A stretch of 64,000 bases of DNA, from NCBI GenBank assembly GCA_020852815.1, contig JADZAN010000024.1:248001-312000 (forward strand), given 5' to 3'. Position numbers and translations under genes: made by a program. The notes under the pieces are model-generated. The model ran no database searches. It saw only the letters and a list, made by a program, of their open reading frames with translations, and had not been told where the DNA came from. The first letter of the stretch is position 1. Every line of letters starts with the position of its first letter. Positions 1,692 to 11,779 of this stretch are shown piece by piece. This stretch comes from Gemmatimonadaceae bacterium. GTDB taxonomy: Bacteria; Gemmatimonadota; Gemmatimonadetes; Gemmatimonadales; Gemmatimonadaceae.

Positions 1692-2972
1692 CTACGACGC
1701 TGGCGCCAGGAGGTCAACCAGCGACAGCGCGATCACCTGTGTGGCCCGCATCAACTCGTCGATGTCGCACCACTCGTCGGGTTGGTGCGACAGCTCGAGT
1801 CGCCCCGGGCCGTAGGCCACGCACTGCTCGATCCCGCCAATGCGCGTCACGTGCTTGTGGTCGTACGTCCCGGGCGAGGCAACGATCGCGGCCTCGCGCC
1901 CCACCGCATCGGCAATCCCCCGCTGGAGCGACGCCACCAGCGGCGACCCCGCCGGGGTGCGCACCGGGTGCACCACCATCAGGTCGCGCATGCTGAAGCG
2001 CGCCTCGGGGATGCGGCGCTGCACCTCGGCCAGGAGGTCGGTGACCTCGCCGCGCACCTGCTCGAACGGCTCCTCCTCCAGGAAGCGCCGGTCGAAGATC
2101 GCGCTGCAGCTATCGGCCACGCACGGCGACTGCACGACGTGCCCCGCCTGCCCGCCGGTGATGCTGTTGATGTTGAGGGTGGCGTGCCGGGCGCCGGCGG
2201 GGACGACCGGCATCGCGGTGATGCGTGCGGCGAGCGAGGGCTGCAGGCGCGCGGCCATGTCGTGCAGGAGTTCCCCCATGTGCTCGATGGCGTTGGCCCC
2301 CAGGAAGGGCATGCTCCCGTGCGCGATGCGCCCCTGCGCGACCACTTCGAACCAGTACACGCCGCGATGCCCGATGCAGATGCGGTCCACCTCCAGCGGC
2401 TCGGGGATGATGACGTGGTCCACCGTCGCCGAGGTGAGGCGCCCCGCCTGCGCCAGATGCGCGGCCCCCGCCCAGCCGCCGCTCTCCTCGTCGACGGTCC
2501 CGCTGATCTCGACGGTCCCCAGGAGCTCCACGCCGGCACGCCGCACACACTCGGCGGCCAGCACCGCGGCAGCGATCCCGCTCTTCATGTCGCTGGCGCC
2601 GCGACCGTACAGGCGTCCGTCGATCACCTCGCCCCCGAAGGGATCGCGCGTCCACCCCTCCCCAACCGGAACCACGTCGATGTGGCCGTTCAGATGCACG
2701 CACGGACGGTCGTGCACCCCGCGCTTGCGCCCCACCACGTTCACCCGCGGATGAAGGGTGGTGTGCTCCGGCCGACCGGTGGCGGTGTAGTACTCGATGG
2801 AGAAACCCAGACGCCGCAGTGTGTCGCCAAGGAACTGCGCGCACTCCTCGTACCGCTCACCCGGCGGGTTCACCGTTGGGATGCGGATGAGGTCCTGGGT
2901 GAGGGCGACGATCTCGTCGCGCGCCGCTTCCACGGCTCGCAGCACCGAGTCCCGCGCGGTAGGTTTGCCCAT
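1692..2972 (-). CDS. M20 family metallopeptidase/deacylase (ArgE/DapE-like)
   Basis: Predicted cytosolic zinc hydrolase of the acetylornithine deacetylase / succinyl-diaminopimelate desuccinylase family, cleaving an acyl or peptide amide. The 426-residue length is normal. Metal and catalytic motifs are complete: HxD in NGHIDVVP (His97, Asp99), Asp128 in GRGASDMKSG, the Glu pair in TVDEESGG (162-163), and a late His near the C terminus in ELSHQPDEW. The dimerisation lid domain sits around residues 200-320. ATG 2972 (MGKPTARDS) is chosen because the open frame further upstream has no family similarity. It is transcribed away from the P1 peptidase at 3112 with a 139-bp shared control region, suggesting a peptide or amide catabolic locus. 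The exact substrate cannot be read from sequence. Confidence 0.9.
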   Translation of the reverse strand: MGKPTARDSVLRAVEAARDEIVALTQDLIRIPTVNPPGERYEECAQFLGDTLRRLGFSIEYYTATGRPEHTTLHPRVNVVGRKRGVHDRPCVHLNGHIDVVPVGEGWTRDPFGGEVIDGRLYGRGASDMKSGIAAAVLAAECVRRAGVELLGTVEISGTVDEESGGWAGAAHLAQAGRLTSATVDHVIIPEPLEVDRICIGHRGVYWFEVVAQGRIAHGSMPFLGANAIEHMGELLHDMAARLQPSLAARITAMPVVPAGARHATLNINSITGGQAGHVVQSPCVADSCSAIFDRRFLEEEPFEQVRGEVTDLLAEVQRRIPEARFSMRDLMVVHPVRTPAGSPLVASLQRGIADAVGREAAIVASPGTYDHKHVTRIGGIEQCVAYGPGRLELSHQPDEWCDIDELMRATQVIALSLVDLLAPAS

Positions 2973-3111
2973 CGAACTCGAAGCCGTGGGAAGCCGGGGA
3001 GTGACTGGCGCAGCGAGCGCCAACGCCTGGCGCACGATGCCAGCGACTGGCGCCACATGCGCCGGAGGGATGATGCGCACGTTACCATCTCCGGGACAAC
3101 ACACGAAGCGG

Positions 3112-4221
3112 ATGACGGGCCACGTGCGCGTGCGCCGGGCGACGACGTGCGTGCTCGGGGCGGGGTTCCTCGCGCTGAGCGCCTGCGCCCCCGCGCTTCC
3201 GGCGCAGGGTGGGGCAGCGCCGCCTCCAGTACCCAGGTCGTCCACAGGCGGTGGGCTCACCGCCGTCACCGGGCTCAAGGTGGGGCACTTCACCCTGGCC
3301 GAGCGCCCCACGGGATGCACGGTCATCCTCGCCGAGCAGGGGGCGGTGGCCGGCGTCGACGTGCGCGGCTCCGCGCCGGGGACGCGCGAGACCGACCTCC
3401 TCGACCCGGTGAACATGGTCCCGGCGGTGCACGGGATCCTCCTCACCGGCGGGAGCGCCTTCGGCCTCGACGCGGCCGGTGGAGTGATGCGCTACCTGGA
3501 GGAGCACGGCGTGGGCTTCGACACGCGCGTGGCGCGCGTCCCCATCGTCCCCGGCGCGGTCATCTTCGACCTCGGTGTGGGCGACGCCAAGGTGCGCCCC
3601 GGCGCCGATTGCGGCTACCGCGCGGCGAGCGCCGCCACTCCGGGGCCGGTGGAGGAGGGGAACGTGGGGGCGGGTGCGGGCGCCACGGTGGGGAAGCTCC
3701 TTGGTGGCGCGCGCGCCATGAAGGGCGGCGTCGGCACGGCCGCCATCACGCTCAAGGATGGGCTCACCGTCTCGGCGATCGTCGTGGTGAATGCGGTGGG
3801 CGACGTGATTGATCCTTCGACCGGCGCCGTGGTGGCCGGTGTGCGCACCGCCGACGGGAAGGGGTTGGCCGACGCGCGGGCGCTGATCCGTGCGGGTGCC
3901 ACGCGTCCGTCGGCGCGTGTGGGGGAGAACACGACCATTGGTGTCGTGGCCACGAACGCCGCGCTCACCAAGGCGCAGGCCAGGAAGGTGGCGCAGATGG
4001 CGCAGGACGGTATGGCGCGCGCCATCTCTCCCGCGCACACGATGGGGGACGGCGACACGATCTTTGCCATGGCCACGGGTGAGCGGGCCGAGGCGGCCGA
4101 CGTGACGACGATTGGCGCCCTGGCCGCCGACGTGCTGGCCGAGGCGATCGTGCGGGCCGTGCGCGAGGCGCGGGGGATTGACGGCTATCCCGCGGCGCGC
4201 GACCTGGCGCCGGCGCGTTAG
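3112..4221 (+). CDS. P1 family peptidase (DmpA/S58-like), predicted lipoprotein
   Basis: Peptidase of the S58/P1 (DmpA-BapA) group, self-processing N-terminal-nucleophile aminopeptidases. The 369-residue protein starts at ATG 3112 with a basic n-region, a hydrophobic stretch and a lipobox (LSAC, Cys25), so it is probably anchored outside the cytoplasmic membrane. Family hallmarks are GILLTGGSAFGLDAA (108-122), EGNVGAGAGATVGK (182-195) and AMKGGVGTA (202-210). The last surrounds the site where DmpA-type enzymes cleave themselves; Thr209 is the likely nucleophile region here (inference). The gene ends in the octamer CGTTAGGC and is followed after 17 bp by a sodium symporter gene, so the two are probably co-transcribed and handle released amino acids or peptides. 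Confidence 0.88.
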   Translation: MTGHVRVRRATTCVLGAGFLALSACAPALPAQGGAAPPPVPRSSTGGGLTAVTGLKVGHFTLAERPTGCTVILAEQGAVAGVDVRGSAPGTRETDLLDPVNMVPAVHGILLTGGSAFGLDAAGGVMRYLEEHGVGFDTRVARVPIVPGAVIFDLGVGDAKVRPGADCGYRAASAATPGPVEEGNVGAGAGATVGKLLGGARAMKGGVGTAAITLKDGLTVSAIVVVNAVGDVIDPSTGAVVAGVRTADGKGLADARALIRAGATRPSARVGENTTIGVVATNAALTKAQARKVAQMAQDGMARAISPAHTMGDGDTIFAMATGERAEAADVTTIGALAADVLAEAIVRAVREARGIDGYPAARDLAPAR

Positions 4222-10940: not shown

Positions 10941-10990
10941 AGGGGCGCACGCCAACAGTGGTATTCGTGGTCAGGAAATCGGAGGAAATC

Positions 10991-11106
10991 GGGGTCAGAG
11001 TCACCGAGAAACTACTTGAAGGGGGTCAGAGTCATCGAACCAAATTCTCGCTGACTCTGACCCCAGTTCAGAGTCCGCGAAGCAAATTCTCGCTGACTCT
11101 GACCCC
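10991..11106. repeat. GGGGTCAGAGTC palindromic repeats, first cluster
   Basis: Copies of the half-site GGGGTCAGAGTCA occur at 10991 and 11022, facing inverted copies TGACTCTGACCCC at 11052 and 11094. The pair 11022-11064 forms an imperfect hairpin. Similar GGGGTCAGAGT termini are, from memory, associated with REP/RAYT-type Y1-transposase elements in many bacteria; no transposase is present here. No coding potential seen in 10941-11335. Confidence 0.75.
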
Positions 11107-11150
11107 AATTCGGCCCCCCAACTCGCCCCCCCCACCCCGCACGCCCCCCC

Positions 11151-11218
11151 CGTGACCACCCTGAACAGGGCCTGCCTGCCCCCCGCTCAAAGACTCGCAT
11201 CGAAGTCCAGCACTTGAA
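11151..11218 (+). pseudogene. degenerate duplicate of the 5' end of the UGA-containing gene
   Basis: This stretch aligns with the beginning of the gene at 11336: GTGACCACCCT against ATGACCACCCT, then a shared GGGCCT, and a shared GCATCGAA followed by CCAG. It has substitutions and a one-base deletion relative to the intact copy, and the position matching TGA is TCA. It is preceded by the same C-rich tract and the same palindrome, so about 190 bp (palindrome, C-tract, gene start) were duplicated in tandem and this copy decayed. Confidence 0.55.
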
Positions 11219-11219
11219 T

Positions 11220-11262
11220 GGGGTCAGAGTCACCGAACCAAATTCTCGGTGACTCTGACCCC
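11220..11262. repeat. 43-bp near-perfect palindrome (GGGGTCAGAGTCACCGA arms)
   Basis: The arms GGGGTCAGAGTCACCGA and TCGGTGACTCTGACCCC are perfect 17-bp complements around a short AT-rich loop. It is the best-preserved copy of the repeat clustered at 10991-11106 and lies 73 bp before the ATG of the candidate selenoprotein. It could be a mobile-element end, a terminator or a binding site. Downstream, a GGCCGnTTTGGCCG-like tract and C-runs fill 11263-11335. Confidence 0.8.
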
Positions 11263-11335
11263 GATTTGGCCGCTGACCCCGGTTTGGCCGCCGATTTGGC
11301 CGATTCCCCCCCACCCCCCCCCACCCCCGCCACCC

Positions 11336-11683
11336 ATGACCACCCTCGACTGGGCCTACCTGCGCCCCGGCTGAAACACCTGCATCGAAACCCAGGAGTT
11401 CCTGGGACGGAAGAAGGTGGCGCTCGGCCCGACCGAAGACGCCAAGAAGAAGCGGTATGACGCCGTGGCGGTGAAGGAGGTGCTGAAGGGGATCGAGGTG
11501 ATCGTCTCGATGAAGGGGAAGCGCTTCGTGAAGCTCGACCTCAAGCGGGGAAAGGTCTCCGACGCCGACATCCATGCGGCAATCCTGGGGCCGTTCGGGA
11601 CGCTGCGCGCGCCCACGCTGCGCAAGGGAAAGACGCTCATCGTCGGCTTCAACGAAGACGAGTACCGGAAGCTGTTCAAGTAG
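11336..11683 (+). CDS. candidate selenoprotein: ArsC/Spx-like thioredoxin-fold protein with in-frame UGA
   Basis: From ATG 11336 the frame reads MTTLDWAYLRPG, then TGA (codon 13, 11372-11374), then NTCIETQEFLGRKK and continues without interruption to TAG at 11681-11683, 115 residues in all. With UGA read as selenocysteine the active site is U-N-T-C (13-16). This matches the CxxC or CxTC of ArsC/Spx/MgsR-like reductases, with Sec replacing the catalytic Cys. The C terminus (LRAPTLRKGKTLIVGF) also fits the RP-loop and final strand of that family. A hairpin of bacterial SECIS type follows the UGA at the proper distance. If UGA is not decoded, an 88-residue product from GTG 11417 would lack the active site. 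No Shine-Dalgarno is obvious. The Sec machinery genes are not in the window. Confidence 0.6.
11391..11406 (+). promoter_or_regulatory. candidate bacterial SECIS hairpin
   Basis: CCCAGG-AGTT-CCTGGG forms a perfect 6-bp stem with a four-base loop. The loop starts 22 nucleotides after the UGA codon and has G as its second base. Published bacterial SECIS models require a short stem-loop roughly 16-37 nt downstream of UGA with a G among the first loop bases, so this one conforms. It lies within the coding frame (codons for TQEFLG), as bacterial SECIS elements must. Confidence 0.55.
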
Positions 11684-11726: not shown

Positions 11727-11779
11727 TTGGTCGCAACTGCCAGCTCCGTATTTCCCTCACCCCCATCCACCCACCCCCC

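Follow-up and report, generated by a model that had tools for sequence, protein, structure and literature searches.

Computational evidence for an ArsC/Spx-type selenoprotein gene with selenocysteine at codon 13 in a Gemmatimonadaceae bacterium

ArsC-like selenoproteins were reported from bacterial genomes in 2006 (PMC1794560) and from ocean metagenomes in 2008 (PMC2398784). An 'Arsenate reductase-like protein' with the motif UxxC appears in a 2022 review (PMC9312934), and under the same name and motif the family NF041106 is listed in the 2026 review of the prokaryotic selenoproteome (PMC13188914). The latter also sets out the criteria for a bacterial SECIS element (bSECIS): a loop of 3–9 nt closed by a stem of 4–16 bp, a G in the first two loop positions, a location 16–37 nt after the UGA, and a minimum free energy of −7.5 kcal/mol or lower.

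The window analysed here, a stretch of 64,000 nucleotides, contains an open frame that runs from ATG 11336 to the TAG at 11681–11683 and is interrupted by a single in-frame TGA, at codon 13, at the coordinates given in the original prediction. With TGA translated as U, the read-through protein displays the proposed active-site spacing U-N-T-C at residues 13–16. The features of the locus are the following:

11336–11683, + strand: coding sequence, very probably of an ArsC/Spx-family selenoprotein of 115 amino acids with UGA read as Sec (read-through translation, NF041106 and PF03960 matches, conservation in relatives)
11372–11374, + strand: predicted Sec codon UGA, codon 13, first residue of UxxC (same column in 16 of 16 aligned homologues)
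11381–11383, + strand: TGC codon of the putative resolving Cys16 of UxxC (translation; invariant column)
11391–11406, + strand: bacterial SECIS-type hairpin with a 6-bp stem and AGUU loop (folding; conservation with covariation in relatives)

The read-through protein matches the NCBIfam model NF041106, 'ArsC family (seleno)protein', with 115.9 bits against a cut-off of 85, covering profile positions 1 to 107 of 107. It resembles this family (ArsC_rel_Se_1) in the full-length match and the UxxC motif, and differs from it in nothing essential; the gene is thus a further member of an already described and catalogued selenoprotein family. The ArsC 1 and ArsC 2 selenoproteins described in the Global Ocean Sampling survey (PMC2398784) likewise belong to the ArsC family and have Sec in a UxxS or UxxC motif but, unlike the present gene, they are marine metagenome sequences, and the likeness to them is one of family and motif only.

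An NF041106 homologue over the cut-off was found in 66 of 395 genomes drawn from the phylum, and every such match carries exactly one in-frame TGA. Where the DNA was read directly, the TGA falls in the same column at 38 of 38 loci, namely the 37 of the hairpin and codon comparison below plus one (G087) from the alignment of 16 homologues. In that alignment Y8, R10, P11, U13, C16, G88, R91, A92, P93, G98 and G104 are invariant. The weaker matches without TGA appear to be other ArsC-family genes; two of them whose sequence could be read, L081 and L082, show Cys in the equivalent motif (KGCSDT and KGCRDT). When the single protein was used to scan named genome contigs, the one match was an ArsC relative of the Cys type from a Moraxellaceae MAG, with Cys at the position of the UGA. 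Homologues had been expected to show either Cys or UGA at codon 13, and this is the distribution observed: UGA at the same codon within the family, and Cys in the distant Spx and ArsC proteins.

A mechanical ORF caller places the gene start at GTG 11417 and loses the first 27 codons, just as had been anticipated for gene finders. Such a start would yield an 88-residue protein without the active site, and it could also draw on the leader before ATG 11336, which is almost pure C and contains no recognisable Shine-Dalgarno sequence. Against it, the first 16 codons are highly conserved, with Y8, R10, P11, U13 and C16 among the invariant positions, and in the structural model described below they form strand 1 and the beginning of helix 1. 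We therefore consider initiation at the GTG very improbable and retain ATG 11336, an exact start that is placed by conservation because the leader offers no recognisable Shine-Dalgarno sequence. Such C-rich leaders without a Shine-Dalgarno sequence stand directly before two ATG starts (11307–11335 and 11751–11779) and are not general among the other starts checked.

A TGA inside an otherwise intact frame might also be a true nonsense mutation in a recent pseudogene, too young for decay to have become visible. The surroundings of the gene lend this idea some colour: just upstream there is a partial, decayed copy of the start of the gene, and palindromic repeats have invaded the region, as would befit a mobile, unstable stretch. 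However, the same UGA occupies the same codon in dozens of genomes from several families of the phylum, distant relatives included, which refutes a plain stop. In three same-genus pairs, moreover, dN/dS after the TGA is about 0.26, 0.48 and 0.14, with third codon positions changing most (the first 11 codons are too few to yield a meaningful ratio). As judged from these substitutions, the frame downstream of the TGA is under purifying selection, and a pseudogene is a most improbable reading of the locus.

The repeats themselves form a cluster of REP-like palindromes (GGGGTCAGAGTCACCGA-N9-TCGGTGACTCTGACCCC) at 10987–11302, between the upstream gene and the selenoprotein gene. Their half-sites have 54 and 55 matches (about 109) in the host genome, against 1 and 0 in two genomes of the same genus that are 74% and 99% complete, so that the palindromes are probably a recent lineage-specific expansion. 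Among them, at 11114–11210, lies the decayed duplicate of the C-rich leader and of the first 20 codons of the selenoprotein gene (98 nt, 75.5%, E 1e-12 within the window), which reads TCA where the gene has TGA. Neither the repeats nor the C-rich leader were found next to the gene in two same-genus relatives.

Recoding of UGA calls for a dedicated machinery, and the selA, selB, selC and selD genes that the original prediction proposed to look for are all present in the host genome. SelB (304 bits, in a frame of 744 amino acids), SelA (532 bits), SelD (385 bits) and tRNA-Sec (68.5 bits) each score over their cut-offs, and the tRNA is also called by ARAGORN as tRNA-SeC with anticodon TCA (UCA). 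All four lie on one contig (C10), where selD stands directly upstream of the tRNA-Sec gene selC (locus L085, about 2142–3265). SelD is itself a selenoprotein by sequence, with an in-frame UGA in CAGUAAKLGPG, a well-known Sec site. Among relatives, selB is over the cut-off in all seven TGA-type cases found among 99 genomes, and the gene is likewise missing from four near relatives in which no selB exceeds the cut-off (G005, G059, G063 and G077). Sub-cut-off tRNA-Sec-like Rfam matches occurred in all searched and all control genomes and were disregarded.

The predicted hairpin was confirmed as stated, with a perfect stem CCCAGG/CCTGGG at 11391–11406 and a 4-base loop AGTT, 22 nt after the UGA, in which G is second and is followed by U. 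Folded alone it reaches −11.1 kcal/mol, and its stem, loop, G position, distance and energy all lie within the published bSECIS ranges. At gathering scores Rfam returned no RNA family within the window. As a control for chance, we recoded the same amino acids synonymously with the family's own codon use, and a stem of at least 6 bp arose in about 24% of the recodings of the present gene. The hairpin of this genome is consequently weak evidence, within chance given the protein sequence and the GC-rich codon use, and we rejected it as stand-alone proof. In most relatives, synonymous recodings give such a stem in about 1% of cases or less.

What makes the SECIS convincing is that it is kept across relatives with compensatory changes. 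A stem of at least 6 bp is present in 24 of 27 distinct sequences, and 98.6% of cells pair across the 23 distinct relatives with a 5-nt loop. Two of the six stem pairs show compensatory changes (G-C to U-A and A-U to G-C), and the covariation score over these 23 relatives is 0.304 versus 0.158 when shuffled, a value that no slid register and not one of 500 shuffles attained. Codon choice follows the same pattern: the Phe codon within the hairpin is TTT in 25 of 37 genes (8 of 64 elsewhere in these genes), and the Leu codon is CTT in 25 of 37 (31 of 460 elsewhere). The loop seems to covary too, AGUUU versus GGUUC, in keeping with the N1/N2 pair in the pattern published for these elements. In relatives, both the frame past the TGA and the hairpin are conserved to a degree that far exceeds chance.

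A 5-nt loop fits most NF041106 relatives, while the present gene, its genus and one further genome (G054) pair in a register shorter by one base, where the loop is AGUU, 4 nt long with its GUU kept. In a UGA-type homologue from a distant family (locus L075, at 4721, family f7) no hairpin was found at the usual place; CACC-CGUGC-GGUG, which lies a few bases before that place, could take over its role. No Cys version over the cut-off occurs among the 66 genomes that hold the subfamily. It is conceivable, though we put it forward only tentatively and hold it to be rather doubtful, that the subfamily is obligately Sec-based in the phylum and that in this genus the SECIS register slipped by one base with GUU retained.

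An AlphaFold2 model built with the 16 homologues reaches a pLDDT of 92 and a pTM of 0.85, and it places residue 13 between the strand of residues 6–9 and the helix of residues 14–25. Thioredoxin folds usually carry their nucleophile at this strand-helix junction. In fold comparison the protein matched Spx, YffB and ArsC-related proteins best, with a Foldseek E value of 5e-5 for Spx, and 3ihq and 3gkx superpose with Z 8.6 over 88 residues at 2.8–2.9 Å. Going by model and alignment, the protein belongs with the thioredoxin folds of the Spx, YffB and ArsC type, and its Sec occupies the position of the first Cys in the Spx CxxC.

With Spx (PDB 3gfk, 1z3e, 3l78, 6ghb) the protein shares a thioredoxin-like fold with an insert, a CxxC that aligns to its UxxC, and the motifs G-x-LR-P and G-[FY]-N-E-[DE]; it differs from Spx in having Sec in place of the first Cys and in its score on the Spx/MgsR model. 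The solved YffB and ArsC-related proteins (PDB 1rw1, 3gkx, 2m46) have the same fold, with Z about 8, but contain no Sec and are 15–24% identical to the present protein.

These relationships bear on a question of function that is compatible with a selenoprotein gene, namely whether the protein could be a true arsenate reductase or an Spx-type regulator with a Sec redox switch. The Pfam ArsC model (PF03960) scores 35.2 bits, over its gathering cut-off of 24, and the best solved relatives, by sequence as well as by fold, are Spx proteins whose CxxC stands at the corresponding position. On the general Spx/MgsR model TIGR01617, however, the protein scores 35.3 bits, far under the cut-off of 75.05, and we therefore do not class it as Spx. 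The neighbours checked in the window (an FG-GAP protein, a DUF3830 protein and an efflux system) include no ars operon, and none of the neighbours shared across lineages points to either function. No neighbour was common to all lineages in the 17 regions compared, for which reason operon context was discarded as a clue to the substrate. Nothing specific favours arsenate reduction or Spx-like regulation of RNA polymerase; these functions are not supported, and we consider either of them unlikely.

Taken together, the reading frame, the conservation of UGA and SECIS, the fold family and the presence of a full Sec machinery were all established computationally. We hold with very high confidence that this is a genuine bacterial selenoprotein gene from the ArsC/Spx branch of the thioredoxin fold, with Sec predicted at codon 13, most likely by way of SelB and the SECIS. 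The Sec-containing ArsC/Spx-type protein of the original prediction is thus well borne out by the NF041106 match, the conserved UGA, the full Sec machinery and the predicted fold.

For the actual insertion of Sec, the two-step Sec/Cys catalysis and the substrate, we infer the following mechanism. SelB and Sec-tRNA(Sec) most likely recognise the hairpin just downstream and recode the UGA at codon 13. The product would be a protein of 115 residues that carries its redox centre, Sec-Asn-Thr-Cys, where the first helix begins; its most likely role is that of a cytosolic thiol/selenol oxidoreductase. By analogy with UxxC/CxxC redoxins, the selenolate of Sec13 would attack the oxidised substrate, and Cys16 would then resolve the selenenyl intermediate.

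As the family is already catalogued, the gain for this locus is modest: a correct annotation and a defined biochemical target. The case confirms that a true selenoprotein cut short by simple ORF calling can be recovered by reading raw sequence blind, and it adds a clear instance of SECIS covariation for the ArsC/Spx-like family. If the subfamily does prove to be obligately Sec-based, its reaction would have to be one for which Cys does not suffice.
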